DNA from: Hydractinia symbiolongicarpus
Lineage: Eukaryota > Cnidaria > Hydrozoa > Anthoathecata > Hydractiniidae
Reading direction: 5' to 3'
DNA length: 64,000 nt
Assembly: GCF_029227915.1 (NCBI RefSeq)
Contig: NC_079879.1
Location: 22,088,501 to 22,152,500, forward strand
Both the position numbers and the translations under genes were made by a program. The notes beneath the pieces were generated by a model. It ran no database searches, was not told the origin of the DNA, and saw only the letters and a program-made list of their open reading frames with translations. The first letter of the stretch is position 1, and each line of letters begins with the position of its first letter. This document shows, one piece after another, positions 16,701 to 54,764 of this stretch.

Positions 16701-18002
16701 GGTAATTTTTAATTTTATGTTTAATATTTATTATTCTCTGGAGAAAAACCTTGAAATATCATTACTTTCAACATTTCTGTCTAGTTTTGATGCGTTGTCT
16801 CTCGTTGCGTTTGCTGTTTTACGGTCTGCGTGGTTAAAGTGTTAGGGATTTGTCTCTGTGGTTAAGAACTTTAAAGGAAAAAAATGTAGCAAAAAAACTG
16901 GGTCAAAAAAGATGTTAAAAAATTTAGCACATCAGCGGACTTTGCGTGTATAAAAACTATTAGCGGTATTGTTTCATTCTTTCCTTAATTTTATTTCTTG
17001 AATATTTTTTTTTAGGTGATACAAGACTTAGACAGAATTAAACAACAACAACGACAACAACAGTCTTTTTGCTTCTTTTCCCACTACCCTTAAACCGTTT
17101 TAAATTCGAGAGAAATTTAACGGAACACAGATAAATCTGGCAGCGAATAAGAATGAGTGCATTAATTGTGCATTTCATCTACTGTATATAATCGGAGTAA
17201 GACATTCCGCAGGATTTAAGGTTAACACGGTTTGCTATACTATTTTTACATCAGTTGTTGGTCAACATTAATTTTTTAATAAATTTTGGTCAGCATTGTT
17301 GATATATTTTGCATGTTAATAAATTTTGGTCAGCATTGTTGATATATTTTGCATGTTGCTATGATTTGGCTCCACCAGCATGCTGGCCATCATTTTAAAA
17401 TTTCGGACGTTTTAAAGCCTTTCTCACACTTGCAAATGGTAAGTTTGAACGTATGTGATGTATGTAGGACAAAATGTTTTTAATGATATTAATTTAAATG
17501 GTATAGCAAATCGTAGCAACATGTCTCGGTTTGCGGATGCCTCCTTTGATTCGAGTTACCGACCGGCATCTTTAAAGCGCCTCTCTGGAATTTTAAGGGT
17601 AGAAAAAGAACGGAAACTACTTACAGCGTTTTGACCGTGTCCAATTATTTGAATTAGGGCGATTGGTGCGAACCGGCAAGGTAGCTCTTCCAGTGAACTA
17701 AACTAGTCATTTCCCCCTTTTGATATTTTTGATAGAGAAGGGGAAAGAGAGCGCCCTAAAAGTGGTAGGATGACAGACACCATAGTGCGAGAGAGCAGAA
17801 ATGGATATCTTGTCAAGATAAAAGTTGCTATTTCATTGGGAAAAGTTGAATTTCTTGCGTCAGTATTTAAGCAATTGTAAATCCAAGTCACGTTTTTGTT
17901 TTGAGAGTGTAGTAAATTATTACTACTATTATTCAGAAAGAAAGCTCGCACATGGAGTATCTGCTGAGTATATAGAATGGTTTAATCTTCCCTTTTTTTA
18001 AC
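16701..18002. other. Sequence between RPL26 and the 16.6-kb element
   Basis: Holds an exact tandem duplication of a 40-bp unit at 17276-17355 (TTAATAAATTTTGGTCAGCA and the rest of the unit). AAG|GTAATT just after the RPL26 stop and TTTTTTTAG|GTGATA at about 17016 could be a 3'-UTR intron, which is weak evidence. Nothing else recognised. Confidence 0.5.
17994..18002 (+). repeat. Left 9-bp target-site duplication
   Basis: TTTTTTAAC lies immediately before the left terminal inverted repeat. The identical 9 bases follow the right terminal inverted repeat directly at 34641-34649, in the same genomic orientation. Confidence 0.6.
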
Positions 18003-18092
18003 GGCATATCGGAAAAGTGGGACTCGGGACGCGGGACCCTGTTGAGTCGGGACCCGGGACACGGGATCCTGATATCGAGACGTGGGACGCAA
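18003..18092 (+). repeat. Left terminal inverted repeat with GC-rich subterminal units
   Basis: GGCATATCGGAAAAGTGGGA followed by tandem degenerate units of the form (A/T)CGGGAC and GCGGGACCCTGTTGAGTCGG. The right arm lacks one 6-bp ACTCGG-type unit but otherwise matches for about 60 bp. Repeated subterminal motifs are common transposase-binding arrangements; binding here is speculation. Confidence 0.65.
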
Positions 18093-18752
18093 TGCGGCAA
18101 AATTTAGATGATACAAAATACTGACCCACGCTATAATAGAAAAGATCATAAAGTGAGCATTTTTTATAATTTTTGTTCTATTAAAAAGTATTCCTACTGT
18201 GAGTGTGGGTGCTGTGAAAAGGTGATTTAAAAACACCTAACATTTACAAGATTATATACACATAGTAGATCTTTAAAATGCTTAAGAAGTAAGATATTTT
18301 ATTAAAAAAAAAAGATGAAAGAGATGAATATGCTATTAGCACCGTTATGTCACGAGCCGACATTTTGCTGCACCAGCTATATGTCTCCCCAGGGTATTTA
18401 TCACACACACGTGTCTCTATTATTCACGGTTGTAGCGAAGTGGAGATCCGTGTTTCAAATCCAAGCTTCTGTGCGACTACGCTCTTCGCAGTTTTGGGAG
18501 TTTAGAACACAGTGTAAGTGACTCACGAAATTTGCTATGCGGAAACCATGGACAGACGCTGAGCTATATTTGAATGCGTCTATTTTACAGAATTTATTTT
18601 CATCGAATAGACCATGATTTCTCAAAGAACTACACGACGAAGTCAGATTGACCAAGTCAAATTACAGATTTTTTAGTTTTAAAATTTTCCCTCACAATAT
18701 ATCGTCGAATAATCAGCGGTAATTTACTCAGTGCTTGTTGTTCTTTTCTTTA

Positions 18753-18923
18753 GCTAGTGCAGCTTTGTGGCACCATAAAAGCTAGTGCAGCTTTGTTGCA
18801 CCATAAAAGCTAGTGCAGCTTTGTTGTACCATAAAAAGCTAGTGCAGCTTTGTCGCACCATAAAAAGCTAGTGCAGCTTTGTCGCACCATAAAAGCTAGT
18901 GCAGCTTTGTTGCACCATAAAAG
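18753..18923 (+). repeat. 28-29-bp minisatellite, six copies
   Basis: Unit GCTAGTGCAGCTTTGTNGCA plus CCATAAAA, repeated six times with few substitutions and occasional extra A. It ends about 85 bases before the start codon of the 2027-residue frame. Its place directly upstream suggests a promoter-proximal or subterminal function, which is unproven. Confidence 0.95.
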
Positions 18924-18957
18924 TACAATTATTATAATTAATATATATGTTATATTA

Positions 18958-18966
18958 TATATAAAA
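18958..18966 (+). promoter_or_regulatory. TATA-like box before the Rep-helicase gene
   Basis: TATATAAAA about 40 bases before the ATG at 19007, between the minisatellite and the gene. The distance would allow a very short 5' leader. The match is to a generic TATA consensus in an AT-rich genome, so it is modest evidence. Confidence 0.4.
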
Positions 18967-19006
18967 AACTGCTACTGTGCTAGAGGTACATGTGGTGTGA
19001 ACTGGA

Positions 19007-22000
19007 TTGAAATGTAAGATGTCTCTCCTGAAAATTACTCATGGATCGTTTAATCAATCCCATTCTATGTTCGGCGAAAGTGCTGGAAAACAGTGTGCAT
19101 GTTGTAGCTTGTATGCAGTTTCTTTTTCAACTAGAGTAAAGTCCCCAGGTAATTGGAATGTTAATGATATTGATTTTATCATTACAGAAGCAGATAAACT
19201 ATACAAATCTCTCAATAAAAACACATACCTTACGGTACCTGATCTACCAAACAGTGTGCCTATATTTGGATCTAATGTTACAATTACTTATTTAGATAAA
19301 GAATATGGTCTTTTAAGTAGCTATTCTATTCCGCGCTTTTTGTCAAATTTGAATAACTCAATTGGAGACGGGTTACTTTTTTTCGTGAAATTTATTTGTG
19401 TTGCGATACTCCCTAAAAAGAACTGTGTCTACTTGTTTGATTCTCATAGCAGAAATAACTGCGGTCAGCCAACACCTGATGGTTTTTCTTCTTTAATGAA
19501 ATTCCAAAGAAAGAGAGATTTAGAAATATACCTTCATACAACCTACATTGATCTAACGACAGTTGATGAGCCATATGAATTACAATACATAAGTATTGAT
19601 TCAGATGAAGAAGTAAGTCTTTCTCGACTATATTCTAACAAAGTCAATAGAGAAAAGAGTCGTTTACGCATGGCAACGGAAGCCAACAAGGAAAAATGTA
19701 AAATAAGACATGCAACTGATACCAACAAGGAGAAAGCTAAAAAGCAGCATGCAACTGAGGAGAATAAGCAAAAAGCTAAAAAACAGCAAGCAACAGAACA
19801 CAGCAGGGATCAATCTAGAAAACGAAAGGCAACTGTTTCCAATAAGGAGAAAGCAAATACATATAACAATGCTGATGCTAAGCGCAAACAAAAAAGTGCT
19901 AAAACAATAAATGATTGCATTTTAAATTTCCAGAAAGCTATTCAGAATGGCCCCTACTATGTCTGCATAGTTTGTAATAGGAGCCTTTACAAGAAAACTG
20001 TAAAATTATTTAGCAAAAACAATTATGAAGTAAGTTTATACTATGTGTTTACAGATGTTCTATGCTTTGATTCTCATGCTTACATTTGCATAACTTGCGA
20101 TAAGTATTTAAAAAAAGCTGAGATACCCCCGCAGGCTGTTTGGAATAAGTTAAATATTGTTGATCTTCCTAATGAAATTCAATGTTTAAACAGACTTGAG
20201 CAAATTCTGATTTCAAAAAGAATATTATTTAAAAAAATAGCTGTTATGCCTAAAGGTCAACAACAAAAGATAAAAGGTGCTATTTGCAATGTTCCTATTC
20301 AAGTAGAAGCCGTTAATAACTGTCTTCCTCAGGGTATAGATAGTAGTGGTGTATTGTTTGTTAAACTGAAGAGAAAATTGGCTTATCGAGGCCATGTTGT
20401 GTTTCAAAGTGTACGTCCTGAGCTTTTAAACGAAGCCCTACAATATTTGAAAAATTTCAATTCCTTTTACTCAGATGTGCTGATAAGAATGGATAATATA
20501 ACCCAGGAATTTTTAAGTTTATGTGATACAGATGCTATGGTTGACACAAATGAATTTTCAGTAACAGTTGACATTGATGATGACAATTTAGAAGCTGAAA
20601 ACCCCCTAAGTATGAATTGTGCAAGTAGTGATGAAATGTGTGTTATACCAAATTTCCAAAATCCAGATGATGAGGTTTTAGATATTGCTCCTGGTGAGAA
20701 TAAACAACCACAATCTTTTTTTTCTGACCAATACTGTGAGGAGCTTGCATTTCCCTTTTTATTTCCCACTGGAAAATTTGGGTATAAGGTTGCTAGACCA
20801 GTGTACTTGACAGCGACAAAATATTTCAACCAGCGTTTGTTAAATTTTTCCCAGCGCTTTTCTTCAAATGCTGATTATATATTTTTTGCTCATTATGTAA
20901 TGCAACAGTCAAATTTGTTTAATCAAATAAATATTGCAACGAAAAAGGTAAAGGGCACAATAACGGCTGGGCAGTTGCAAATTAATTTTCATGAAACAGT
21001 TCGTTCTTTTATTTGTGAAGGTCAAGGTTACCAATTTATGAACTCTATTAAAGGAACACCTGCTTATTGGAAACATTTTCTTTACGATGTTTTAGCAATG
21101 GTTAAACAGTTAGGATTGCCATCATACTTCCTTACTCTGTCATGTGCAGATTTGAGATGGGATGAACTGGTAGTGATAATAGGAAAATTGAATAACATTG
21201 ATGTTAGCAGTAACGAATTGGATTATTTTAGACGTTGTAGTATTCTTAATCAAAACCCAGTTTTAACTGCAAGGCACTTTCAATACAGAGTAGAGAATTT
21301 CTTTAGAGAAATTTTGCTTCATAAGAGTAGTCCTATTGGCCAAGTAGCTAATTATGCTATTAAAGTCGAATTTCAGTTTAGAGGTTCACCCCACATCCAT
21401 GCTTTTCTTTGGTTGTTAGATTCACCAACTCTTACAAACGAAACCACAGACAGTTACACATCTTTTGTTGATAATACAATACGCGCAGACCTCCCTGATC
21501 CATTAATTGAGCCTGAATTACACAACCTTGTCTCTCAATATCAAATCCACTCTCATTCAAATTCTTGTCGCAAATACAAGAACATTCCATGTCGTTTTAA
21601 TTATGGACGTTTCTTTACTGATCGAACAGTTATAGCCAGTCCATTACCAGAGAATATGTCTGATTCTGAAAAATTGAGTTTATTATCAGAAAGAACTAAA
21701 GTATTAAAGAAAGTCAAATTATTTATCGATGAAAATTTAGACCCTAGTAAGCCTAACTACTTGAGCGACAGCTGCAAGTCCATACCAGAGATTTTATTGG
21801 AACTTCACATATCAGAAGTTGACTATTATAGGGTTTTAGCAATATCTCCAAATCAAGACTTTGAAATATACTATCATCGACCACCAAATTCATGTTTTGT
21901 AAATAATTACTTTGCAGCAGGACTTTTAGCTTGGAAAGCCAATTTGGACTTGCAGCCTGTGTTCAATTATTATAAAGCAGTGTCATATATGTGTTCTTAT

Positions 22001-25000
22001 TTCTCTAAATCGGAAAATGAGTCATCTCTTGCAATGAAAAAGGCAGCTGAAGAGTCTGAAAATTTAAACTTGCCAGATCGTATGAGAAAATTAGCCTTAG
22101 CATTTTTATCACACCGCCAATGTTCATTACAGGAAGCTGTTTATCAGGTATTGCCAGAGTTATGGTTACGTAAATGTTTCCCAGGAATTGTGTTTGCTAA
22201 TACAAATTTGCCTGATAAAAGATACAGAGTTTGTAAATCTGAAGAAGAATTAGAAGAATTGCCTCCAGATAGTACAGATGTTTTTAAGCGCAATAGTTTA
22301 GATCGATACATGGATCGACCCAATGTTACATTTAAGCGTGGTCAATATTATATGATTAACAATTTATGTTTTGCTGAATTTCTTGCGTATTATGTGCTGG
22401 ACACAAGTAAAAAGCTTGACATAGTAAATGATTATCAACCAGAGGTTCTTTTAGATGATGATGAAATTTGTAATCCCTTATTGCGTTTACCTAAGTCTGT
22501 TCCTCTGATGTCTTCCAAAGAAAAATTGAAACGGAGAAATAAAAAGCGTGTTGTCCGTTATCATACTCCTAATCCAGTTAATAAAGCGGAAGAGTATGCC
22601 CACCATTTGTTGATGTTATTTTACCCCTTCAGAAAGGAATCTGATTTACTTAGCGAAGTTGGAAATTCTTATGTTGTTAAACTTAATGATCCTGAGGTTC
22701 TGAGCATTGTTAATGAGAACAAGGCTAGATTTGAACCATGGGGTGATATGGTAAATAATGTTTTAATGAATGCTGATTTTTCACCTCGAACTGATCAATT
22801 TGCGCAACAAGAGAATGACAATGTTGAGGAAAATGTAGTTAGGGATAATGAATATCAAGGTGAACAAGCTCAAGGTTTAAATGCTGCAGCTTCTTCGAAT
22901 GCAGGGCACACATCAACACAGATTAATTTAATGTCAGATGATAGTATTAATGAATTAATACGTAGTTTAAACGAAAAACAACGTTTTCTTTTTGACGTAA
23001 TTAATAGATGGGCCCGAAGGCATGTTAAAAATTTATCAGCTGAAGAAGTTACAGAAAATCCTCCTTTGCATTTATTTGTTACAGGTGGTGCAGGAACAGG
23101 CAAATCCCATTTGATCAAAACTATAAGTGCATCAGTTTCAAAAACTTTATGTTATAGGTCTTCATGCATTGAAAAACCAAATTTGCTTTTGCTTGCACCG
23201 ACAGGTGTTGCAGCAGTGAATATCAATGGAACCACAATACATTCAGCTTTAGGAATTTCTGTAGAGTCTCGTGGGTTAACCCTTCACAAGCTTCCAGATA
23301 AAAAGAGATGTAAATTAAGGCAAGAGCTATCAGATGTTAAAGGTATCATTATTGATGAAATATCTATGGTATCCAATAAGTTACTGTTGTATGTGCATCA
23401 AAGGTTAATAGAAATATTTGGATGTGTTTCTGATTTTTCAAAACCATTTGCTGGCTTAACAATAATTTTAGTGGGTGATTTGCATCAATTACCCCCCGTA
23501 ATGCAAAAACCAATTTATGCAGAATTCAGCGATGAATTGTATAACATTTATCCACTATGGCGAAACTTTCAGATGTGTGAATTGACTGAAGTTATGAGAC
23601 AACGGGGTGATACTGTTCTAATTGACCTACTAAATAATGTTAGGCTAGGAACTCTATCTTCACAGGATGAACATCTCATCCGTTCACGATTCATTGATGA
23701 AAATAGTAAACACTACCCAATAAATGCATTGCATATTTATGCAGAAAATGAGCCAGCTAGAGTTCATAATGCAAGATTGTTAAATAGTTTAAACAGCGCT
23801 TTGATAACAATAGATGCCATTGATCAAGTTCCGAAAGAAGTCCCTTCTCATGTTTATGAAAGAATTCAAAACTTAAGCCAATCAAGAACTGGTGGATTAG
23901 CTTTCCAGTTATCTTTAAAGATAGGTGCTAAGGCAATGTTGACATCTAATATTGACATTCCTGATAAGCTAATAAATGGTCAAATTGGTACAATAGTCCA
24001 TGTTGTAGCGCAAAATGATTCAATTAAAACCATTTATGTTGAATTTGACAATCTAAATGTTGGAACAAGTAAAATACGTTCAGACAGACTTGCACAACAA
24101 TTAAATGCAGTACCAATTGATCGAGTGACTACCGAAATAAGAACAAACGAGAAAAAACTTTCCTCTCCGGTCATTAAACGTACCCAATTTCCTTTAATGT
24201 TATCATGGGCTTGTACTGTACACAAAGTTCAAGGCCTAAGTTTACAAGAGGTTGTCATTAGTTTTAATTTGCTGAAACAGAGATCATTCAATAATGGACA
24301 GATGTATGTAGCTCTCAGCCGTGTAACGTCTTTGCAAGGGCTCCACTTAATAGGGGTGTTCAAGTCCAGTGCCATCAATGTTGACGACAAAGCTAAAAAA
24401 GAATATCAGTATTTAAGAGAAAATCAAAGTTTAAGTTTTACAACAGATTTGGTGGCAAAGGAATCTGAACATAGCATATTGTCTTTAGTTGTTTGTAATG
24501 TAAGATCATTGCGTAAGCATTGCAAAGATTTATCTTGTGATAAAACACTTTCATCTAGTGATATTATTCTCTGCACTGAAACGCAACTGACAAATACTGA
24601 AAATTTAACAGATATCATGATTGATGGTTTTAAATTGACGTGTAATAATGATAATGAACACAGATTTTCTAGCTTAGCAATGTATTACAAAAACAAAATT
24701 GAATTACTAGATCATTTCAAAATTAATGGTTTTTCTGTTTTAGAAGTTTTAAATAGCCATAATCTTCCATTGAAAATTAAAATATTGTTATTGTACAAAA
24801 AAAAAGATATGCTAGTTGGACAATTTTTAGAAACTCTAGGCTACCTTTCTGTGTCTATGAACATTGATATTGTTGTTGGTGATTTTAATCTAAAACCAAA
24901 TGCACTGCTAGAACAAACGCTTAATGGTTATGAACAGGTTGTTTCAGAACCAACGCATTTAGGGGGGTCGATACTAGATCATGTATACATAAAAAAATCG

Positions 25001-25090
25001 TTATTAGAACAGTTTCTTGTTTATGTGAGTGTAAAAAGTTTGTTCTTTACTGACCATGAGGCCATTACAATTTCTCTTAGAAATAAATAG
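19007..25090 (+). CDS. Helentron-type Rep-helicase with N-terminal cysteine-protease-like domain and C-terminal endonuclease
   Basis: Single intronless frame of 2027 residues, no breaks. Domains in order: (1) residues ~22-185, papain-fold protease of OTU/C76 type with GKQCACCSLYAV (Cys near 30-33) and LFDSHSRN (Asp145, His147); (2) ~205-290, Lys-rich 14-residue repeats like ATEENKQKAKKQ; (3) ~300-370, CxxC...CxxC zinc-binding region; (4) Helitron-like N domain and HUH Rep, SPHIHAFLWL with His796/His798, and Y2 motif KAVSYMCSYFSK with Tyr994/Tyr998; (5) Pif1-type helicase, Walker A GGAGTGKS (Lys1366), Walker B IIIDEIS, VGDLHQLPP and YVALSRV; (6) ~1825-2027 EEP nuclease, VCNVRSL, TETQL, VGDFNLKP, ILDHVYI, FTDHEAI. 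In known Helentrons Rep nicks and joins single strands, the helicase unwinds, and the AP-endonuclease-like domain is the diagnostic extra. All key residues appear intact. Confidence 0.93.
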   Translation: MKCKMSLLKITHGSFNQSHSMFGESAGKQCACCSLYAVSFSTRVKSPGNWNVNDIDFIITEADKLYKSLNKNTYLTVPDLPNSVPIFGSNVTITYLDKEYGLLSSYSIPRFLSNLNNSIGDGLLFFVKFICVAILPKKNCVYLFDSHSRNNCGQPTPDGFSSLMKFQRKRDLEIYLHTTYIDLTTVDEPYELQYISIDSDEEVSLSRLYSNKVNREKSRLRMATEANKEKCKIRHATDTNKEKAKKQHATEENKQKAKKQQATEHSRDQSRKRKATVSNKEKANTYNNADAKRKQKSAKTINDCILNFQKAIQNGPYYVCIVCNRSLYKKTVKLFSKNNYEVSLYYVFTDVLCFDSHAYICITCDKYLKKAEIPPQAVWNKLNIVDLPNEIQCLNRLEQILISKRILFKKIAVMPKGQQQKIKGAICNVPIQVEAVNNCLPQGIDSSGVLFVKLKRKLAYRGHVVFQSVRPELLNEALQYLKNFNSFYSDVLIRMDNITQEFLSLCDTDAMVDTNEFSVTVDIDDDNLEAENPLSMNCASSDEMCVIPNFQNPDDEVLDIAPGENKQPQSFFSDQYCEELAFPFLFPTGKFGYKVARPVYLTATKYFNQRLLNFSQRFSSNADYIFFAHYVMQQSNLFNQINIATKKVKGTITAGQLQINFHETVRSFICEGQGYQFMNSIKGTPAYWKHFLYDVLAMVKQLGLPSYFLTLSCADLRWDELVVIIGKLNNIDVSSNELDYFRRCSILNQNPVLTARHFQYRVENFFREILLHKSSPIGQVANYAIKVEFQFRGSPHIHAFLWLLDSPTLTNETTDSYTSFVDNTIRADLPDPLIEPELHNLVSQYQIHSHSNSCRKYKNIPCRFNYGRFFTDRTVIASPLPENMSDSEKLSLLSERTKVLKKVKLFIDENLDPSKPNYLSDSCKSIPEILLELHISEVDYYRVLAISPNQDFEIYYHRPPNSCFVNNYFAAGLLAWKANLDLQPVFNYYKAVSYMCSYFSKSENESSLAMKKAAEESENLNLPDRMRKLALAFLSHRQCSLQEAVYQVLPELWLRKCFPGIVFANTNLPDKRYRVCKSEEELEELPPDSTDVFKRNSLDRYMDRPNVTFKRGQYYMINNLCFAEFLAYYVLDTSKKLDIVNDYQPEVLLDDDEICNPLLRLPKSVPLMSSKEKLKRRNKKRVVRYHTPNPVNKAEEYAHHLLMLFYPFRKESDLLSEVGNSYVVKLNDPEVLSIVNENKARFEPWGDMVNNVLMNADFSPRTDQFAQQENDNVEENVVRDNEYQGEQAQGLNAAASSNAGHTSTQINLMSDDSINELIRSLNEKQRFLFDVINRWARRHVKNLSAEEVTENPPLHLFVTGGAGTGKSHLIKTISASVSKTLCYRSSCIEKPNLLLLAPTGVAAVNINGTTIHSALGISVESRGLTLHKLPDKKRCKLRQELSDVKGIIIDEISMVSNKLLLYVHQRLIEIFGCVSDFSKPFAGLTIILVGDLHQLPPVMQKPIYAEFSDELYNIYPLWRNFQMCELTEVMRQRGDTVLIDLLNNVRLGTLSSQDEHLIRSRFIDENSKHYPINALHIYAENEPARVHNARLLNSLNSALITIDAIDQVPKEVPSHVYERIQNLSQSRTGGLAFQLSLKIGAKAMLTSNIDIPDKLINGQIGTIVHVVAQNDSIKTIYVEFDNLNVGTSKIRSDRLAQQLNAVPIDRVTTEIRTNEKKLSSPVIKRTQFPLMLSWACTVHKVQGLSLQEVVISFNLLKQRSFNNGQMYVALSRVTSLQGLHLIGVFKSSAINVDDKAKKEYQYLRENQSLSFTTDLVAKESEHSILSLVVCNVRSLRKHCKDLSCDKTLSSSDIILCTETQLTNTENLTDIMIDGFKLTCNNDNEHRFSSLAMYYKNKIELLDHFKINGFSVLEVLNSHNLPLKIKILLLYKKKDMLVGQFLETLGYLSVSMNIDIVVGDFNLKPNALLEQTLNGYEQVVSEPTHLGGSILDHVYIKKSLLEQFLVYVSVKSLFFTDHEAITISLRNK

Positions 25091-25162
25091 ATTTACAAGA
25101 TTCTGGGGGAGGGTGTTGTGGGATGGTGGTTTTGAGTTTAGGTTTTGCACTGACAATTACAT

Positions 25163-25324
25163 AGGGCTTAAAATAACGGGCGGTCGTCACTGCAAAGAAG
25201 AGGCTTTTCAGAGCATTTTCAGTCCACAAGATGGCCTCGCCTTTTTGGAAATGCTCTGAAAAGTGAAATGCTCTGAAAAGTCTTTTCTCCACAGTGATGA
25301 CGTCCTGTTATTTTAATAAGCCCT
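25163..25324. mobile_element. 162-bp MITE
   Basis: Begins AGGGCTTAAAATAACGGGCG and ends with an imperfect complement, GTCCTGTTATTTTAATAAGCCCT (last 23 bases of the span). Internal ATGCTCTGAAAAGT repeats occur. It lies 72 bases after the Rep-helicase stop, inside the 16.6-kb element. No coding capacity. Confidence 0.65.
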
Positions 25325-25347
25325 GAAGTAGTCAAGTAAGGATTCGA

Positions 25348-25353
25348 AATAAA
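25348..25353 (+). promoter_or_regulatory. Possible polyadenylation signal of the Rep-helicase gene
   Basis: AATAAATAAATAA begins at 25348, about 260 bases after the stop and just beyond the MITE. It is the first clear canonical hexamer downstream. Position suggests but does not prove use. Confidence 0.35.
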
Positions 25354-27969
25354 TAAATAATATGATGTGATTGTGGAAATAAGAGTGAGTGTCTGCTCAA
25401 CACTTTTTGAGACATTGATTTCAAAGCACTTTTTTGTTTTACCACCACCTACAATGAGAGGCTACTTACTTTATATGTGTAGAGATATGCATGGCATTGA
25501 TAAAAATAATGCTAATGTTGATTTTATTTTGTGATACTGTATAGTTCATTGTAATGTTTATTCTCTTTCTAATTTAAAGTAAGTAATAAGCCTTCTAATT
25601 GTTTTTACAATAATTATGTATTTTTCGTTTATAAAACTCTCGATAACTAGAACTCTGAAGGAGTATTTGGGTTATTGAGAGGGAGTTGCACTGTGGGACC
25701 ATCCATTTAGTACGTACGCATCTAAGTGGGGAGGGGATCTGATAAATGCGTACATCTATTGTTTGAATGACATCACTTCTATTATTTTCTGCGTACTATG
25801 GGGGGAGGGTTTTTTTTTGCGTATATACTTTGTGGATGCTCCTTATATTAAATTACTTTTTAGTATATGTATTTGAATGTTATTAGAAAATCTTTGTAGA
25901 AATTCTCCAACGATATACAAATCTAATAGACAATTGAAATAATAATAACATTCACTTCGAAATGGCAATAGACTTTTAACTCACGTATCTCAAAGAATTG
26001 GATAACGAAACTTAAAACTGAAATCCACTTTGAAATAAATGTTGCTGGTTTTCAAATTGAAACTGTTGAAATTGTCAAATTGAAAGTGCTGTTTCGAATT
26101 AAAAGATTTTGTTATATGGATATACCTACACAATGTTGTCATTGGATAACCATACCTTACACAAAGCAATGTTTCCTGTAAGTACCATATACTTCACCAA
26201 TTCGCGAAATATAAAAAATCCCAAAATTTCGATTCACAAAATTTTTTCTCCCAACAATTTATTCCTTTAAAATACCACATTTTTGTCAAAAAGTTGATTT
26301 TGGAAAATACTTTTAATGCAATGGCTTTGAAAACAATGAAAATTTTGAAAAAGCTGTTTCCGTTCTTAATATAGCTTAGTTTAAAGTTTATGTAGTTTGC
26401 AAAATACAGGTATGTATTTTGTATAGGTTATAAAAAAATTTGTAATGACACCCATTTTCTTAATAAATTATTATAAAGCCAAGACAAAAAGCTAGTGAAC
26501 GAATTATATAAAATTTCGGCAGATTACGATGTTTCAATCAGAAGTTATAGCCCTGTCAGCCCAGAGAACTTGGGAACAAAAACAGCTTTTTCAAAAGCCT
26601 ATATGAACCCATTGTTTTCAATTTGGAATCCCTCAAATCTTTATTATTTGCTTCTTTTGTTTATATCTCACCCCCGGATATGCGTATATGCGTATATATT
26701 CTCTTTTTCTCGTTTGTTGAATAATTTATCAAAATAAGTTTAAAAACGATTGCTTTTACTTTTTTAGAGTTAAAGATATGATTAATCAATAATACAAAAA
26801 CAAGTATTCCAGCTCTGTGTGATAGCTAAACGAAGCCACCATCTTCATAATTCTACCTGCCAAGTGGTTTATGTATTGTTTCATTGATACCTGGTGAAGA
26901 AGGTCTATGTGATATTTATTATAGTAGAAGATGTCATTAAGACGACAACGCTTCGTTTTATTTCGTGAGTTGATGAAAAGAGAAATTTACCGCAGCAATT
27001 TTATACAAAATAAACGTACTCGGGAGTAAAATATAAAGCATACACTACTTCCATATAATCTATTTACTGGAAATCAGACTGTTTTGTCCGGCAATTTTTC
27101 CTATGCCAAATTCAATTAAAGCTCAAGGAAATGCAAGAGAAAGGAATCGGCAAGGAGTCTGTTCTCACTGTTTTATTTTCATGTTTAAATTTTATTCTTA
27201 CGAAAACCTATGAACAATTGTAATTGCGTTTTCTTTTGTTAAATCTATGAAAGCTAAAATCCGCACAACACGTGTTTTGATCCCTTCACCTGATTTGATG
27301 TAGATAATGACAGTTGCCATAAATACCCTAGAATCATGGATAGACGCCAGTGTCTGTATGCGGATAAGGCGTTTGGAATTAGAATTAGAATTCACCTGTA
27401 AGATTAATATATTAGATCGTTTATATTCACGAATAATCGATTCTACTCTATGCATTCAAAAAAATAATTTAGCCTTGCCTTGCGATTACTAATATTCTTT
27501 TTCCATAAAAAGGCTAAGTGTTGAGTAACTTGTAGAAAGATCATAAAATAGCTGCTCAAAGTCAGAACGTTGGAGGGTGTTTTTGTTATGGCTTTATTGA
27601 GGAAAATTTGATTGGCTTATTTTAAAATTAATATTTTTCGGGATTAATTTAGTGGCGAATTTATATTTGCGACTGCCAGCCATTCCAGACTGTACTTTAC
27701 GGATCTTATTTCAGCGATTTGGGGGCAAAACCGGAACAATTTAATGTCCGCTAAAACTTATGCCCTTAAGATAAGATAATAATACTCATGTCACTAAAGA
27801 ACTCTGGAAAGCTATTATGAAACGGGATGCCTCGCAATGGATTGATTTCAGACACAATACAATAATATTCCTAGTCAAAGATTTCCGTCTCTCCCATACG
27901 CATGGATATAAAGCTGGTTCTTCGCGCGAGACAAAAAAATCCTGGGAGCTAGAGGCAGGTTTAATAATA
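25354..27969. other. Non-coding interior of the 16.6-kb element
   Basis: AT-rich sequence with no supported gene. Short open frames (60-85 residues) show no recognisable domain. In particular I see no DDE/D transposase pieces here. Confidence 0.5.
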
Positions 27970-28323
27970 CTTTAATGAGATCAAATTTCGCGGTAATTAA
28001 ATTTCATTGAGATTTTGGCTTTATTCGGCAAATTACGCGAAATTTTATCCTTTCAAAAATTCAAGAAGAAGGGACCATCTGCGAAATTTAGCGTTACCAA
28101 AGTTTTAATTTGCTGTACGATCTAAAAAGATAGCGTTATTTCATTGGAAAACAACAAACAGGGCTTTTCGAATGAGAAAAAATGCTACTAAAGTAAAACT
28201 TCATAAAACGCGAAATTAAATCCCCGCGAAATATTTATGGATAATTTATCCGCGAAATTAAATCCCCGCGAAATATTTAAATTTCGCAGAAGAGTTCATC
28301 CGCGAAGTTTTATCCCATTAAAG
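27970..28323. mobile_element. ~354-bp MITE rich in CGCGAAAT motifs
   Basis: The left end CTTTAATGAGATCAAATTTC with GCGG pairs with the right end, whose complement reads CTTTAATGGGATAAAACTTC with GCGG. Inside, a ~28-bp unit GCGAAATTAAATCCCCGCGA plus AATATTTA occurs twice (from about 28210 and 28251). No coding sequence. Confidence 0.6.
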
Positions 28324-28699
28324 ACCAACCTCTTCCCCAGGGCTTTTTCTCTCGAAATTTCACTCGTTATCTACAGTCTCGCCCTTGTTTTCCGCTGGGC
28401 CATCTCAGGGCGTGGTTCCGCAGTCACATAACTATAACAGGGTGTTACTTATGTAATTAGATATTTGCACTGATCAATTCTTTACGAAAAAAAAATACTG
28501 TTTTACAAAAAAATGTCATCAGAAAGTTATTTAATTATTTAATTCTCATTCCATTTTTATAAAATCAGGCTATGGATATTCGTTTTTTTAAAAACATTTC
28601 TCCATACCTTCTCACAGTGCCCCCTTCATTGCATTCTCTACCCCCCACGACGAAGTAGCCAGATTGCTGGCTCTGTGCCACGTTTTTACCCTTTCAAAA

Positions 28700-30628
28700 A
28701 TGGACTCCAGCAAGAAGAGCAGTCAAAGTGGGAAAAGAGGGGCAAAAGACTCCTCCTCCAGTAGTAAAGACTCCTCCTCCAGTAGTAAAGACTCCTCCTC
28801 CAGTAGTAAAGACTCCTCCTCGAGTAGTTCGAGCGACGGTACGTTTAATCTTTTTTGATTTTATTATAAATTTCCCATATTACAAGACTATTGTCTTTAC
28901 CAAAAAAAACCTGTTCAAATTACCTCACGCCACCACCCACGTGTTTTGTTGCTCCACACGAGTTCTTACGTATGTCATTACTACTTTTTTAGTTTATTTC
29001 TGATAGATTTTAGCTGCTTAGTTTTTACCTTGCTTCGCATGTTTTTTTTCCTAAGAATCTGCTTTGGCCACCATCAAAAATATGTTATGTTCGCGTCCTG
29101 AAGACCCGGCAAAAATGAGTCGGTCGGTCGGTCGGGCGTATTTTTTCCCGGGATTTTCAGATGGGGGAAAAATTCGTTCCCAGGGCCAAAAAACAGTATA
29201 GCGCCACTCGACAGACCCTTTTTTCGCCGCCCTGTCTGTAAACTTGCCATGAGTACCCTAAAGATATTAATTTTTACGGGAATTAATTTTCGCGAGTTTT
29301 TGTCAATTTTGGGAAAATTAGTTCTCACAAATTTTTTTTTTCAAATATATATCGTTTGGATCAAAAAGTTTTTTCTGGGTTTTTTCCGACTTACCGACTC
29401 GGGTTTTTATTGCCAAAAGTGAGTCGGTCGGAGGACGCGAACATAACATATTTTTGATGGCGGCCTTTTAGAAAACTTTGCAAAAACAAAAACTTAAGCA
29501 AGGGGGTTTAAGGACATGTTAATTTCCTGGGATGAGGTATATTATAAAAGGTATTAGTAAAAATAAGCTTGACTTTTTCCCAAATTTGGAACCAGTGAAT
29601 CAGTTACCTTTTTCTTCTTAAATTCAGGTGCCTTGACATGTTACCTCCATGATCTCAGTCCAGTCAAAAGGGCAAGAAATAGCAGTGTTGGTTATTACAA
29701 TTTCACTGTCCAAACTGATGAAACTGTTCACCGTGGTGTGTCATTTCGAATGGATTTGAGGGATAAGATAGAAAAAGCAGCTGAATCGAAGAGTCCCGTA
29801 AAGTTGGTTAATTATAAACGCAAAGCGAACTGGAAAGATAACAGCCTCCAGGACATTGAAGTCAATAGAAACACCAGATTGGAGGAGTGTAAAGCTGGTT
29901 TCGCTCACAAAAACATCAAAAAGGATGTTGCCAAACGTCAAAAAATCAAAACTGTGCTTGATAGTGGTTATGATAAACAGATGGTTACTATAATAGGATA
30001 TATTGACATTGATAATGTGGCTATTTCAACTATGGATTCGTCTGCAAAAAGAACTGATACATTCGTTAACGATGACAGTGGGATTGTTTTGGTTTCCTTT
30101 TGGAATGAAATCGCAAATCAGCTGAGCACGAGTGGTACCTATGAATTACAAAATCTTTCCGTACGGGAGTTAAATTCAACCCCTGTTGAAACTGTTCTCA
30201 CTACAACCAGCGAATCATTGATCTTGCCCTGGACGAAAGGTAATGCAATAAAACAATCGTCTCCACCATATCAGCTAAAGAAGTCCTTGCATTTTCCCAT
30301 AAAAAGTGTTTCAATCAGCCAGAAGGTATATAAATGTCCTCGGTGTTTTACTCAAATTGAAGAATCTACGCTTGGACAAGATTTTTTTCGTTGCGCCAAA
30401 TGTAAAAATAGTACAAAATTTTCTTCGTTGTCATCAAATGTTACGATCCAGTTAATAACGAATGAAGGACAAGAAGTGGTTATGTATAGCACTCAGCTTA
30501 ACCAATATCTCCTAGCGAAAAGGGAAAGTGTTGAAGTTGACGATGAAGACCAAGTATGCAAGGTTTTGCTGTTGGATGAAAAATCTGTGATTTCTGTTAA
30601 TCACCGTAATGTTGTCATTGACTTCTAA
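28700..30628 (+). CDS. RPA-like OB-fold protein with C4 zinc ribbon
   Basis: Two exons, 28700-28838 and 29628-30628 (TAA), phase-matched at GACG|GT...AG|GTGCC; 379 residues. Residues 1-46 are Ser/Lys-rich with a DSSSSSK repeat encoded by a 21-bp tandem unit. The rest resembles RPA70 OB-fold segments: an N-terminal region (YLHDLSPVKR..YYNFTVQTD), a second with MVTIIGYIDIDNVAI and GIVLVSFWNEIA, then a zinc ribbon CPRC-x15-CAKC matching the layout of the RPA70 C-terminal DNA-binding domain. Likely role: binding single-stranded DNA. Plant Helitrons carry RPA70-like genes, so a partner role for the Rep-helicase 3.6 kb upstream is plausible inference. A 400-bp MITE lies in its intron. The exon-1 ATG has good context (AAAATGG). 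Confidence 0.75.
28748..28830 (+). repeat. 21-bp coding tandem repeat (Ser-rich leader)
   Basis: GACTCCTCCTCCAGTAGTAA plus A, about four units, encoding DSSSSSK in exon 1 of the RPA-like gene. The near-identical units suggest recent slippage expansion. Confidence 0.9.
29066..29465. mobile_element. 400-bp MITE in the RPA-like gene's intron
   Basis: The left end GGCCACCATCAAAAATATGT continues TATGTTCGCGTCC. The right end is its near-perfect complement, GGACGCGAACATAACATATT then TTTGATGGCGGCC. The inner part has GAGTCGGTCGG repeats in inverted orientation. Non-coding. Confidence 0.85.
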
Positions 30629-30636
30629 ACTTTAAA

Positions 30637-30642
30637 AATAAA
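30637..30642 (+). promoter_or_regulatory. Polyadenylation signal of the RPA-like gene
   Basis: AATAAA 9 bases after the stop codon of the RPA-like gene. A close canonical hexamer supports the gene end called at 30628. Confidence 0.5.
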
Positions 30643-32141
30643 CATTGCTTTTAAATTTCGATGCACTGCAAGCTTTGAAATTAACTATTGTACACCACAT
30701 ATATGTAGTACATTCTGTATAGTTGATAGATATGAACTGGAAGTTATAGATACACAGAAAGATCAGTTATTTCAAGTCTTGCAGTGCATATGCATGTTAC
30801 TGGTTAGCATTGCATTTTGTTACATTTTGTTACTTTTTTTTTCTGTTCATACATATGAACAAGCCTGGAGAAAGTTCAGTCCTTCATGGTTGATGTCTGA
30901 CGAATATTCAAGGCTTGTTCATAATGTATATAACTATAGTTTCACGACTTGCTTTGTTTTGTTTACTCCTTGCACCTGTGATTGAGTGTACTTTTTCTGT
31001 ATATAGTTTCCAGCCCAGACAAGTGATGTCTAACAGTTATTTCAAGGCTTATTTAAAGTAGTAAATGTGGAGCAGTAACTAACAAACAAAGTAACAAGAC
31101 ATGCTTTTGGCTTGCTTTGTATTAAGCCGTGAATATATTTGTTTTATGCTATACATATATACTAGTTATATAAGTGAAATAATCATCAATCATCACTGTT
31201 GGGGAGAGATTTTTCGAAGCATTTTTATCCTCCATATTTGGCTGGAAATTTCTCCTCAGTGATTATCAACAGTTATTTCAAGCCATCCATCTTTTTGGCA
31301 TATTTTCTGTATATAACCTTCAGCTGTAAAGCATTTTCTTGACAAAAACAGCTATATTTTTACTAGAAGTCATAATTCTAAACCCTATACAAATTTGACT
31401 GTTCCAGTCTAGCTCCAACAAGTCAGTCTGTAAATTTAAAACCCGATTTTCCCGGTTTTGATAGTTCGGCAAAACCTCTGAATCACGTCTGGGCTTTTAG
31501 ATGTCACAATGCTAACGCCTATACAAAATTGGTTGTCCTGGTCTGGCTCTAACATAAGTCGGTCCGTAAATTTAAAACTGGATTTGATAGCCACGCCCGG
31601 GGCTTTTATTTATCACACACAATTGCTCGGGCAAATCTTACCCAGGTCATCTATGACGTTTTTCAAAATTTAATCCAAATGTCCAAAAATGGTCACACGC
31701 ACGATAAACACTTCTGCAGCCTTATTGTGCGCATGACCATTTTTGGACAAGTGCACTAACTTTTTGCGAATGCACAAATTAAATTTTTGCCGTGTTTTGC
31801 TCAGATTAAATTTCGGCGGATCTGGATATTTTGGAAGTTTGCGTGAATTCGTTTTCGCGAATATGTGCAATGCATTATCACTTGCGTAGGCACATAAGTT
31901 CAAAATTTTTCGACACACTGCGATTTTGGTGAAAAATTATACCAAATGCTGAACGGGCCAAAGAAGATCATGTGCGTGCTGCAACCGTGTTCGCGCCATA
32001 AGGCTCTTGTTTAGGTGTTGAAATAATCAAATGACTTTTTTAAGCTATGAATCCAGGTGTGTTAAGTTTGCAAGTTAGTTGTAGCAGATTAAAGAGATTG
32101 TTTTAGAGTTATTAATAGCGAACATTTAAATTAAAGAAAAA
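30643..32141. repeat. Repeat-bearing spacer: ~130-bp direct repeat and a 70-bp inverted repeat
   Basis: About 31370-31450 and 31500-31580 are imperfect direct copies (CTATACAAATTTGACTGTTC against CTATACAAAATTGGTTGTCC, both leading to GT(C/G)CGTAAATTTAAAAC-type sequence). At 31680-31748, TGTCCAAAAATGGTCA faces ATGACCATTTTTGGACA. No gene recognised. Confidence 0.6.
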
Positions 32142-33914
32142 ATGAACATGTCACGGTAAGTGTTTTACATATCCTTTTTTTATTAGAACCATTTTACAAC
32201 AACAATGAGGCTGAAATTTTATGAAAAAAATAAGAACAGAATAAGAACAATGGCAAGGCATTCTCGTCCCCAGAGCTCTTTGAGATAAACTCGAAAGTTT
32301 ATCTCAAAGATAAACCTCATATATTCTTAATAATATTCTTAGCATGACTACACATGAAAACATATAATCAGCTTTAATATAATAAAATTGCTATAATTTT
32401 GTAGAGTATATTTTACTACAACGGACACATTACGTTGTTGCGGATAAAGAAGTTTAGTTTACTTGATATGAAAAAGTAGAGCCTGGACATCTTAGGATAT
32501 TCTTATTTTTTGATCCGTTTTTGTTATAAATGTTAAAAATGTAAAAAGCGTGTACACGCAATTTTATAAGAATTTACTTATAAGAATATATTTTATAGTC
32601 TCAACTTTTTGTTCTAAATAAGAAATTTTTATGATGCACACAATTTGATTAGAAATTTTTTAATGCATATATTTAAACTGAACTTCTTTATTTGTGTTCT
32701 TAAGATGATCTTAAAACGGTGTATTGTTCTTATTTTGTTCCTATTTTTCAACCATTCGCAGCCTCGTTTTCCTTTAAAAAAATGACATTTTTTTTTTTTC
32801 ATTTTCCACTTTTAGTTCTTTCGTCGTGTATGCGATCAAAGAGGACGACGTTAAGGTACACGCGATAAAAGGGGATGGACATTGCTGTTGTATGCCATAA
32901 AATTTGCGATGCAGATGAAAGGCATGCTCGCCATTCCATCCATACAAGGAATAATTGATATGATCCGATTTGAACTATTGAAAAATATCGATTTCTACGC
33001 TGAATTCATCGGAGATATCGACATACTACATCAGTTTGATGAATTTGCGCACTAAAAACGATACGATAGTGATATTGTGGACATGGTTCTACATGCTGCA
33101 AGTAACTGCTTCCGTTTAGCAATCAATGTTTACGTAAAGTACGGCGAGGAATATGTTCTACTAAACTTAAATAAAATAGTGCCAAGGAGAACGCAGTCAA
33201 ATGAGACCATCAACATTTTGAAATATAGAGATCACTATGATTTTTTAGAATTTGGTAAATTCTTTGAATATTTTCTGCAACCTAGATTCTAGATCTTTTT
33301 TCAAGCAGAAAATCAAAAATGAAACACGAACGTAAAATTTTAAAAACCTGGGAACGAGGTTGTATATCATGCTTTATTGCTTTTTATTTTATGGTTGTTG
33401 CAGTTACATTAAACCAAGCAATTGAAAGTGATGAGGCAGGTGAGTATTTGTACAAAGTTGCAACAGCAAAAAAGCAAAAATAAATATCCTAGCAGATTTT
33501 AACAAGGAAGCTAATCCGGGACGGAAGAAATCAAAATCCACTCGAAGAAGAAGGGTCCTGCTAATTTGAAATCAAACGCCAATGCAGTTTTACGTCAATC
33601 CAGTGCAAGTAAATTCAACTACTAATGGTGGCGCATCAACAACAACAACTACTACAACTGCAACTTCAGCAACTACCACATCTACTCCTACAGCAGCGAA
33701 AATATCTGCGAGTACAAATACACCTACAACTACAGGTATCACAAAGAATTTAGTAAATCAGCCTTCTGAACCAGATCCTGCTCCACACTGTTACCAGCTG
33801 ACATTGCTAAAATGTTGTCACAAGAACGTAACATGCTGTTATGGTTGTGGTGGACGATACGGAAAGCCTGAAGAACCAAATGATTTGATTTTAGTCCGAA
33901 GTCGAAGGAGTTAA
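32142..33914 (+). pseudogene. Broken OTU-domain gene with Cys-rich C-terminal motif
   Basis: A short first exon, 32142-32155 (MNMSR), splices in phase to 32816. The frame reads SFVVYAIKEDDVK then AIKGDGHC, the OTU catalytic-cysteine signature. One base is missing after the Cys codon, shifting the frame; the next frame continues LLYAIKFAMQMKG, then RFELLKNIDFYAEFIGD. An in-frame TAA at 33052 follows, then KRYDSDIVDMVLHAASNCFR and ILKYRDHYDFLEF, stop near 33292. Farther on, 33582-33914 encodes a Thr-rich stretch then LLKCCHKNVTCCYGCGG and PNDLILVRSRR, a Cys-rich motif I associate with OTU-fused proteins of mobile elements. The breaks suggest an inactive cargo gene. Joining the two halves as one gene is inference. 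Confidence 0.6.
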
Positions 33915-34559
33915 CTCAATTGGCCGACTTTACGCGCGTGTATTATCATCTAAAACAGTCTTGGTTTTCGAAATATGATAATTTTTTTCACGTTTCGTCA
34001 ATATTAGTACCGGATGACTTACGGCACATCTAAGTGCAAGGCACAAAACTCTTTGAAAATCAATCGGCATACTTTATATATTATTACATTTAAACTTTAA
34101 AATCTTTTGTTTACTTTTTATGCATATACTTTACACTCTTTTGTTCACAAGATGAAGAACTTTAACTTTATAAAAACCCTAACACTGTTTGCCAGTGTGA
34201 TATCAACAAAAAATACTGCATTCAGATTCTCCTCTTCGTTTAAAAAATGGTGTTCATGATTCGTGACACAACGCTTTGTGTATGATATCGATTTTACCTT
34301 TCTTTTTTTTACAATTTTTAATATTCTTTTTTACAGTTTCTGTTATATTCTTTGTTCAACGTGTTTATATTTTTGAAATACGCCTTGTGTATGAATTTTA
34401 TTTTTCATCTTTTTTTTAGAAATTCTGTTCATTCTTTGTTCAAACGTGTATATAACACACATTGGGGAATGACTACCATCGACTTATCATATTTTCCATC
34501 CAAACGGTCCTGATTTTACACATCCGATACACAGTCCCGCGAAACTCATAAAATATTCA

Positions 34560-34640
34560 TTTTCCAGGGTCCCGCGTCCCAGATCCCGAGTCCCGCATCC
34601 CGACTCAACAGGGTCCCGCGTCCCACTTTTCCGATATGCC
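34560..34640 (-). repeat. Right terminal inverted repeat of the 16.6-kb element
   Basis: Read on the minus strand from 34640: GGCATATCGGAAAAGTGGGA, then CGCGGGACCCTGTTGAGTCG and further GCGGGAC/TCGGGAT units, matching the arm at 18003-18092. Directly followed on the plus strand by TTTTTTAAC. Confidence 0.65.
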
Positions 34641-34649
34641 TTTTTTAAC
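34641..34649 (+). repeat. Right 9-bp target-site duplication
   Basis: TTTTTTAAC begins exactly at the last base of the right inverted repeat plus one, and is identical to 17994-18002. It is T-rich, so chance is less negligible than for a mixed sequence, but its exact abutment on both arms favours a true duplication. Confidence 0.6.
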
Positions 34650-38480: not shown

Positions 38481-39794
38481 TTAATATGGCTGAAATCTTC
38501 CACCACCTCGACCACTTCTTGCAGGCCCATAACCATATCCTGCTCCATAATAATCATATCCTGTACCATACCCACCATACCCGCCGTATCCACCATAACC
38601 ATAATAACCATCATAACCAGTCCAGTCACCCCATCCACCTTGGCCATAATGACCACCCCTTCCACCTCTAAATCGACCCTGAACAGCACCTAAAAAAAAA
38701 GTAGTTACACCATCACACAGACCTCATTAAAATAATCTCTGTTTGCAGGTGAAAACTAAAACCTTCTGTTTTATTTTTAGATTTGAATAGACGCACATAT
38801 CACTTTTTAAAACAAGCTTATAGCAGACGTTCAGATTAACAGCTTTTGAAATAGGAGATGTGCAGTGTAGCTATAGCAAATGTTGAAAACGCCAAAAACA
38901 CAAAACACGATCATAAAATTTAACTTTAAATAGCTACATCTAAAAAATTACGTAACTTTTATATTTCTTACCATCAGGATTTCTTGGTTTCGCTTTGCTT
39001 ATACGCATCATATGACCATCAAGGGTAAATTTAGTTTCAGCAATAGCAATACGATCTGCAAAATCTTCTGTGGAAACTGTTATGAAACCAAATCCACGGT
39101 TTTTATCGGTAGGATTTCCTTGTTCATCCTTTGCCTTCAACAAATTTATTTGTTCAAAGTTACCATACTTAGCAGGGTGTCTAGCTTTTAAGTATTTCTT
39201 AAGTTGTTTTTCTGTAAAATCTGCAGGGACATTTGCAACATGCAACTTTTTAACTTTAAAGTGCCCAGTGGAATCATCTTGTCCTCTTGGAACTGCCCTT
39301 TTAACATCTAATTCTTTATCCTTATATTTATGTGGTCTTGCCAATAAACACTCCTCCAACTCGTCGCATTTAGAAAATGTAATGAAACCAAATAATCTAT
39401 CAGATTTATTACTTTCTTTTCGTATTACTAAAGAATCACTTATTTCACCAAAAGTACTGAACAGTGCCTTAAAATCTTCGTCCTGAGTTTCCTTATCAAG
39501 ACCACCTACAAACATTTTCCTCATTTCCTCTCGCTCATCAAACTCTGGTGGGCAAACATACTCTATTTCCTCATCATCCGACTCAGGTTCGGGTTCAGGT
39601 TTGGGTTCAGTTTTAGGTTCCTCTTTTGTTTCAGTGCTTGGGGCAGTTTCAGTGCTTGGGACAGTTTCAGTGCTTGGGACAGTTTCCCCTTCGTTTGTGT
39701 CGATTGGAGCAGCTTCTTCAGGAACTGGTTTTTGTTCCTCCGTTTCCTGCTGCTCAGAAACAATTGTGTTTTCAGTCGAAACTTCGTCAGACAT
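38481..39794 (-). CDS. hnRNP A/B-type RNA-binding protein, two RRMs and Gly/Tyr-rich tail
   Basis: Nuclear RNA-binding protein of the hnRNP A/B (2xRBD-Gly) class, acting in pre-mRNA processing and mRNA transport. Exons: 38972-39794 (start ATG at 39794) and 38481-38689 (stop TAA), GAT G|GTAAGA to TAG|GT GCT in phase; 343 residues. Residues 1-85 are acidic with a STET(V/A)P repeat and Glu/Pro stretches. RRM1 ~92-168 has RNP2 MFVGGL and RNP1 RLFGFITF; the linker ARPHKYKDKELDVKRAVPRG is characteristic of hnRNP A/B. RRM2 ~178-265 has LHVANV and RGFGFITV. The tail is RGG plus GYGGYGGYG-type repeats ending RGGGRFQPY. I cannot separate A/B, D-like and squid-type orthologs by eye. Further 5' UTR exons are likely upstream. 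Confidence 0.9.
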
Positions 39795-54500: not shown

Positions 54501-54764
54501 AATATTTAATTAACAGTAATTAAATTCATGTTGTCCTTTAATAAAAATTTAAACAAATATTTTTACATGTAACAGCATGATCAATGCTATAAGATATATA
54601 AAAAGGAGGACAATTTTCTTTCTTTTTATTGGTTAGTGGAAACATGCACAAATATTGTGGTTCCAAAGTTATGATTCATTTCTGTAAACGCATGAAACCA
54701 GGACATTTTGTAAGATTTTAAAAAAACAAATTTTTAAGAAGCAAAAGTAAGAACAAAATTCCTT

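Follow-up and report, generated by a model that had tools for sequence, protein, structure and literature searches.

A 16.6-kb unit of Hydractinia symbiolongicarpus is very probably a Helentron nested in a MULE, not a single transposon

Helentrons are Helitron-like elements that encode an endonuclease, as set out for the mite element Helentron-Mo (PMC4067079, available part). Their second Rep motif follows the rule (V/I)ExQxRG(S/L)(P/L)HxH, with a serine between the glycine and the proline, and a second signature, (F/Y)(w/l/y/k)R, lies near motif 2 (PMC4067079). The mite Helentrons have a 3′ subterminal repeat ~38-60 nt from the end and a 5′ one 2-4 nt inside (PMC4067079, available part), and VTD domains have been described in Helentrons (PMC9741609, available part). 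An RPA-like second gene is frequent, not universal, in these elements. Mutator-like elements (MULEs) have terminal inverted repeats (TIRs) and 8-11-bp duplications (PMC6446971, available part), and nested insertions into them are the subject of PMC3903597 (available part). For H. symbiolongicarpus, 48.11% of the genome sequence is reported as unclassified repeats (PMC10411563, available part). Here we analyzed the 16.6-kb unit at 18003-34640 of a 64,000-bp window, the whole stretch of DNA under study (G000:C5:22088501-22152500), and searched the genome (480.9 Mb, 76 contigs) for its relatives. A first-pass annotation had seen one TIR-bounded element carrying a Helentron-type protein, an RPA-like gene, and an OTU gene, and had proposed either a new giant element or a Helentron captured by a large non-autonomous TIR element. 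We conclude that the unit is almost certainly a nest of two unrelated DNA transposons, a Helentron inside a MULE. Two independent sets of ends were observed, each with its own target rule (a 9-bp duplication for one and TT without duplication for the other). The boundary features are listed below; C denotes a contig, L a fetched genomic piece, and P a predicted protein.

17994-18002, plus strand: left copy of the 9-bp target-site duplication of the MULE (TTTTTTAAC); sibling copies have 9-bp duplications of their own
18003-18068, plus strand: left TIR of the MULE, with GGGAC-type subterminal motifs
18003-18424, plus strand: left part of the MULE; long sibling matches at ~75-94%, nine siblings running on into the sequence at 32012
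18425-32011, plus strand: complete Helentron of 13,587 bp, whose insertion at TT produced no target-site duplication; siblings provide empty sites, and the ends are common to other copies
18425-18436, plus strand: 5′ subterminal repeat of the Helentron, CACGGTTGTAGC
31978-31989, minus strand: 3′ subterminal inverted repeat of the Helentron, GCTGCAACCGTG, 22 nt from the 3′ terminus, with 11/12 matches to the 5′ repeat
32012-34640, plus strand: right part of the MULE (OTU-like remnant, putative C-terminal transposase piece, right end)
34582-34640, minus strand: right TIR of the MULE
34641-34649, plus strand: right copy of the 9-bp target-site duplication of the MULE
Uninterrupted target site, in the MULE without the Helentron: TATTATTTAGG

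The sequence GGCATATCGG was found once on the plus strand of the window, at 18003, and CCGATATGCC once in the window, at 34631-34640, with the 9-bp sequence directly outside both arms. A BLASTN search with the 100-bp left arm recovered the right arm in inverted orientation (66 columns at 84.8%, E 3.5e-17, plus a 16-bp block), so that the arms, their homology, and the exact flanking duplication of the first-pass annotation were all confirmed. The left arm gave at least 45 matches in the genome, the window's two ends included and with two matches at some places; this number is a lower bound obtained from 40 scored candidates. The sibling set comprised 30 fetched pieces representing 29 other places, in stretches of at most ~10 kb and mostly from one side only. 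Arms were considered a pair when the facing ends had no more than two substitutions in 10 bases and at least seven of the nine flank bases matched. Other inverted pairs with duplications of their own were found: six had nine matching flank bases (L009, L010, L011, L015, L020, and L021), L038 had seven, and eight were shared in L019, in L035, and between the two separately fetched pieces of the C7 pair, L012 and L013. The pairs with eight or nine matching bases span 0.8 to 12.4 kb.

In 19 of the 29 places, no facing pair with at least seven matching flank bases was found within the fetched stretch, as might be expected if the arms were independent short elements facing each other by chance. Three of these 19 (L016, L024, and L025) do, however, have a facing arm less than 4 kb away, with the outermost 23 bases unmatched, and the window without its inner block aligns to sibling elements over almost its entire length. 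Chance was excluded for the arm pair because none of 200,000 random position pairs drawn from the window at a spacing of 10-20 kb had identical 9-mers and because several of the arm matches stand in inverted pairs with their own 9-bp duplications. The exact duplication and the near-full-length sibling alignment rule out independent arms, an explanation to which we assign next to no probability. The inverted ends and the duplication at this locus are those of the outer MULE, a member of a TIR-element family characterized by 9-bp duplications. Its right part matched L016 at 95.6% over 2,305 columns, L012 at 85.7% over 1,340, and L013 at 91.9% over 1,167; over the longer aligned blocks, the siblings diverge by ~4-19%, gaps included.

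When 18425-32011 is removed, a MULE of 3,051 bp is left. Nine sibling pieces carry the two MULE parts, from either side of 18425-32011, as one continuous sequence. In eight of them (L010, L013, L014, L015, L016, L018, L020, and L021), the match to window positions 18424-18430 continues in place with the match from 32004-32013, and in L009 the left match stops at 18377, owing to a small deletion, and resumes at 32013. The alignment of these nine siblings placed the break between TATTATT and TAGG. The uninterrupted 40-bp site was recovered in 8 of the 30 pieces with at most six edits; the sites in L016 and L021 differ from it by two substitutions and lack indels. Because these two pieces keep TATTATT-TAGG uninterrupted, the Helentron was inserted at TT without duplication; given the T's on both sides, its ends can be shifted by one or two T's. 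The 12-15-bp subterminal inverted repeats typical of Helentrons were recognized in the 5′ and 3′ repeats listed above. The insertion of the Helentron into the MULE is well supported.

The inner element was also found elsewhere with the same ends. Queries with its left and right ends gave 19 and 15 matches, respectively, the window included in each, and both ends occurred in the correct order at nine other places (three on C12, two on C11, and one each on C9, C5, C1, and C10). Eight of these nine spans measure 12.9 to 17.0 kb; at the C10 place, the main left match starts at query base 41 (span 14.7 kb), with the first 47 query bases matched 3 kb farther outward. All left ends inspected (11 of the 18 other matches) read TTC[A/G]CGG (TTCACGG, with TTCGCGG once), and all right ends inspected (13 of the 14 other matches) read CTTGTT, followed by T in 11. 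The flanks mostly differ from place to place; two C4 left flanks are alike, as are two C6 right flanks, and a similar stretch occurs in L045/L049. At G000:C6:31219849-31222191 and C6:18032157-18034455, the ends lie just ~2.3 kb apart, and these two elements are likely non-autonomous Helentron derivatives; their 3′ flanks, identical over the bases compared, may reflect one duplicated locus. The copy at C12:24.72-24.74 Mb, fetched in full in two pieces, differs from the window copy by five mismatches and no gaps over 13,587 bp (99.96% identity). In this copy, the 351-aa open reading frame (ORF) is undamaged, and the long ORF reads through without a stop for 2,011 residues, as far as the piece border. 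Compared with the ~4-19% divergence of the MULE siblings, this near-identity indicates that the Helentron insertion was recent and left little time for a later hop; the nested copy is young.

A 160-bp query across the left composite junction gave 29 matches in the genome, of which one, the window itself, spans the junction, 16 are confined to the Helentron side, and 12 are confined to the MULE side; no second copy of this junction was found, and the further full-length composite copies considered in the first-pass annotation did not appear. One explanation of the locus is a single new 16.6-kb transposon with its own Rep/helicase/endonuclease, RPA, and OTU genes, TIR ends, and 9-bp duplications. 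Intact TIRs and an exact duplication do enclose the Helentron genes, but the inner 13.6 kb is missing, at one precise point, from siblings that have the same ends, the inner block has ends of its own and exists elsewhere, and the left composite junction is without a second copy. The sibling empty sites and the Helentron copies elsewhere rule out the giant element, one proposal of the first-pass annotation, whose chance of being correct we consider negligible. Its other proposal, capture by a large non-autonomous TIR element, was right in that a Helentron lies inside such an element; the outer element is small, however, and the Helentron inserted itself.

The order of events can be read in two ways, and arrival of the Helentron before or after the last hop of the MULE is compatible with the data. 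If the Helentron had been inserted earlier and the MULE ends had then carried it here, the composite would have hopped at least once as a 16.6-kb unit. The intact MULE ends and duplication, the existence of related transposase frames without stops, and the undated order of the two events are in keeping with such a history, whereas the single place at which the left junction is spanned and the short time implied by the 99.96% identity, set against sibling divergence, make it improbable. That the composite is itself mobile, with intact MULE ends moving a 16.6-kb package that holds an intact, recently active Helentron, is likewise very doubtful; the single copy found is compatible both with such mobility and with its absence. 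If true, one transposon would be shipping a second, autonomous one of another class.

Several observations weigh against reading the locus as a Helentron nested in a MULE. No empty site of the MULE insertion, as envisaged in the first-pass annotation, was seen in the assembly, where the 103-bp joined flank matched only the window's two flanks. No significant 3′ hairpin was found in the Helentron; near its 3′ end, a 3-bp GCC-ATAA-GGC stem was the only one (z 0.36). Left ends without a partner occur on C1 (31.17 Mb), C4 (10.42 and 1.84 Mb), and C12 (20.66 Mb), and partnerless right ends on C7 (14.45 and 18.45 Mb). The endonuclease and RPA assignments described below are weak by sequence. Finally, in a comparison of four MULE sequences with 24 flanks taken from other Helentron copies, one flank (L043) matched a 63-bp stretch of the MULE interior (E 2e-10). 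It was the only flank with matches below 1e-5; L040 and L058 gave short, AT-rich matches at ~2e-4. The surroundings of L043, 2.8 kb on each side, contained a short shared repeat and no recognizable MULE ends, with one weak 15-mer match (at most four substitutions). A preference of the Helentron for MULEs was rejected, as L043 alone among the 24 flanks matched below 1e-5 and had no recognizable MULE ends nearby.

The coding and repeat features within the Helentron are the following.

18752-18923, plus strand: 28-bp minisatellite, 6.1 copies
19007-25090, plus strand: Rep/helicase/endonuclease ORF, 2,027 aa
19046-19465, plus strand: tegument-type deubiquitinase domain (Herpes_teg_N / VTD), E 7e-6
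20822-21406, plus strand: HUH Rep domain, Helitron_like_N, E 4.6e-29
23024-23668, plus strand: PIF1-type helicase domain, E 8.1e-32
24815-25057, plus strand: C-terminal endonuclease/exonuclease/phosphatase domain (Exo_endo_phos), a weak match (E 0.0036, 17.5 bits, below the cut-off of 24.5)
28700-30628, plus strand: RPA/SSB-like gene, with a putative first exon near 28700-28838 and the main exon at ~29630-30628

The 2,027-aa frame bears out the Helentron-type protein of the first-pass annotation. As in Helentrons, the HUH Rep and PIF1-type helicase domains are in a single ORF, which also contains DUF6570, and residues 664-865 match the solved structure of the Helraiser Helitron transposase (7lcc, E 1.7e-10). 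The second Rep motif is VEFQFRGSPHIH, with S between G and P as in Helentrons; upstream of motif 2, the F and R of NFFREI fit (F/Y)(w/l/y/k)R, and the middle F is outside the listed letters. The Rep region had 235 relatives at E<=1e-3, and the named ones among the best 120 of these come from Hydractinia, Clytia, corals, and a sea anemone. Over the searched residues 560-1060, identity reaches 100% with P0036, a 2,023-aa protein encoded in this genome. Precomputed PF03372 or PF14529 annotations were present on some relatives among the best 120 of the 235 (e.g., P0040, P0052, P0063, and P0087).

The second Helentron ORF gave five protein matches, including the identical P0031 (LOC130614240), a predicted protein that joins both RPA/SSB-like stretches through an upstream exon near 28700. 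An Ssb-like OB domain was detected in three of the six members of this family (best E 5.6e-5). When the ORF was compared by sequence with solved structures, no match reached significance (best E 0.39; single-stranded DNA-binding proteins at 0.58). Its structural model, of low confidence (pLDDT 60.7, pTM 0.41), matched RPA structures (4gop_C, E 3.2e-12; 1jmc_A, E 4.1e-9), with a chain of a nucleotide-excision-repair complex as the top match and HIN domains, which are OB folds too, in many rows. The family matches and the model weakly suggest an RPA-like product, so that the RPA-like gene of the first-pass annotation is retained as a tentative one.

Two coding remnants were recognized in the MULE.

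32855-33292, plus strand: remnant of OTU-like cysteine protease exon(s), in two frames
33570-33914, plus strand: putative C-terminal piece of the MULE transposase gene, co-linear with ORF L012:1138-1836 on the minus strand of the C7 copy

The C7 pair L012/L013 (G000:C7:12211691-12224051, 12.4 kb) has several minus-strand ORFs, with transposase-like ORFs at L012:2463-3687. Only L012:393-1726 and the end of this copy match the window element. The window MULE is a non-autonomous deletion derivative, because it keeps the ends, the OTU-like remnant, and the putative C-terminal transposase piece but has no match to the C7 stretch with the other transposase-like ORFs; the earlier observation that no DDE transposase lies inside holds for the window copy. 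ORF L012:1138-1836 would be part of the transposase gene. The 253-aa C7 ORF gave 30 protein matches, of which P0001 is its own record. Common to the family alignment are stretches around LGVDPTFN and LKAFGTDGE, which we take to be the MULE catalytic region, followed by C-x(2)-H. Pfam MULE (PF10551) was matched by 11 of the 31 family members scanned singly (best E 5.5e-6), and no Pfam MULE match was obtained for the C7 (L012) query ORFs themselves. These matches point to a MULE-family DDE transposase in the coding relatives and narrow the earlier choice among MULE, hAT, and Zisupton-type elements to MULE. For the related protein P0004, stop-free matches occur in the genome (e.g., at C1:6753563-6754531 and C5:7330551-7331384), and its C7 place has one stop.

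The sibling ORF L013:2296-2646 of the C7 copy matched Pfam OTU at E 7.6e-4 (20.4 bits, below the cut-off of 23.3), and the window's two OTU-like pieces matched no Pfam family. Window positions 33113-33262 aligned with P0004 residues 2-51 (40%, E 1.1e-4); in P0004, the stretch aligning to the OTU-like remnant precedes the transposase. The OTU gene of the first-pass annotation is thus present in the window as an OTU-like remnant only. RPA and OTU do not form one gene set: the Rep/helicase protein and the RPA-like gene are assigned to the Helentron, and the MULE is the source of the OTU-like remnant. The two transposon families, which are unrelated, may each have a deubiquitinase-like domain, OTU in the MULE and VTD in the Helentron. 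We found no description of an OTU-like exon in such a MULE family in a literature search that left out most subscription papers and Repbase, and its link to this family is perhaps worth noting. The middle of the C7 12.4-kb pair contains ORFs resembling what is presumably a BEL-type LTR retrotransposon. This pair is probably likewise a nest and was dropped as a second giant element on account of these ORFs.

Inside the MULE, inverted 26-bp arms bound the stretch 32226-32748, and a repeat related to this stretch hosts another Helentron copy at C12:17.55-17.57 Mb (L065/L066). The MULE loci L024/L025 (C2) and L030/L031 (C7/C4) share the same 14 flank bases at distant places, the latter two in opposite orientation, which suggests duplicated segments or assembly duplicates. 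Elsewhere in the window, host-type coding stretches were all on the minus strand (38940-39800, 42254-43063, 46294-46758, and 53190-54509). Their products include an RNA-binding protein with RRM domains; 46294-46758 is a laminin-EGF stretch, 42254-43063 looks EGF-like by eye without a Pfam match, and a 439-aa ORF ends in a weak thrombospondin type 1 match.

The nest probably formed in two steps. A non-autonomous MULE deletion derivative of ~3 kb with ends GGCATATCGGAAAAGTGGGAC would have been inserted by cut-and-paste, duplicating the 9-bp target, with the transposase absent from this copy presumably supplied in trans by coding relatives. The autonomous-looking Helentron, moved by its HUH Rep/helicase protein and probably by a rolling-circle route, would then have placed 13,587 bp between two T's of the MULE without duplicating the target. 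Its arrival would have followed the settling of the MULE at this site, although arrival before the last MULE hop is possible.

The locus is an ordinary nested insertion, both parts of which are of known transposon kinds, and a false candidate for a new transposon class combining rolling-circle genes with cut-and-paste ends is thereby removed. By-products for repeat annotation are a complete hydroid Helentron with defined ends, target preference, and recent activity, together with a MULE family with an OTU-like exon. The inner element resembles Helentrons in its single long ORF for both HUH Rep and PIF1 helicase, its VTD deubiquitinase domain, the S in its second Rep motif, its subterminal inverted repeats, its insertion at TT without duplication, its RPA-like second gene, and its weak C-terminal endonuclease match. 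It differs in that the endonuclease and RPA are weak by sequence and the 3′ palindrome is not significant, and, relative to the mite Helentrons as given in the available part of their description, in a 3′ repeat 22 nt from the end and a 5′ repeat at the very end; none of these differences is categorical. The outer element shares with MULEs the TIRs, the 9-bp duplications, a transposase family matching Pfam MULE, and non-autonomous derivatives. An OTU-like protease exon is tied to the transposase gene here, whereas the words "OTU" and "protease" are absent from the main text of PMC6446971; the transposase, reduced to a putative C-terminal piece in the window copy, is not required of non-autonomous members. 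Pack-MULEs, according to the available part of PMC6431247, likewise have foreign genes between MULE ends; here, in contrast, the insert is an entire transposon that moved in by itself and has its own ends, a single copy was found, and no host gene fragments of the Pack-MULE kind were seen between the MULE ends.

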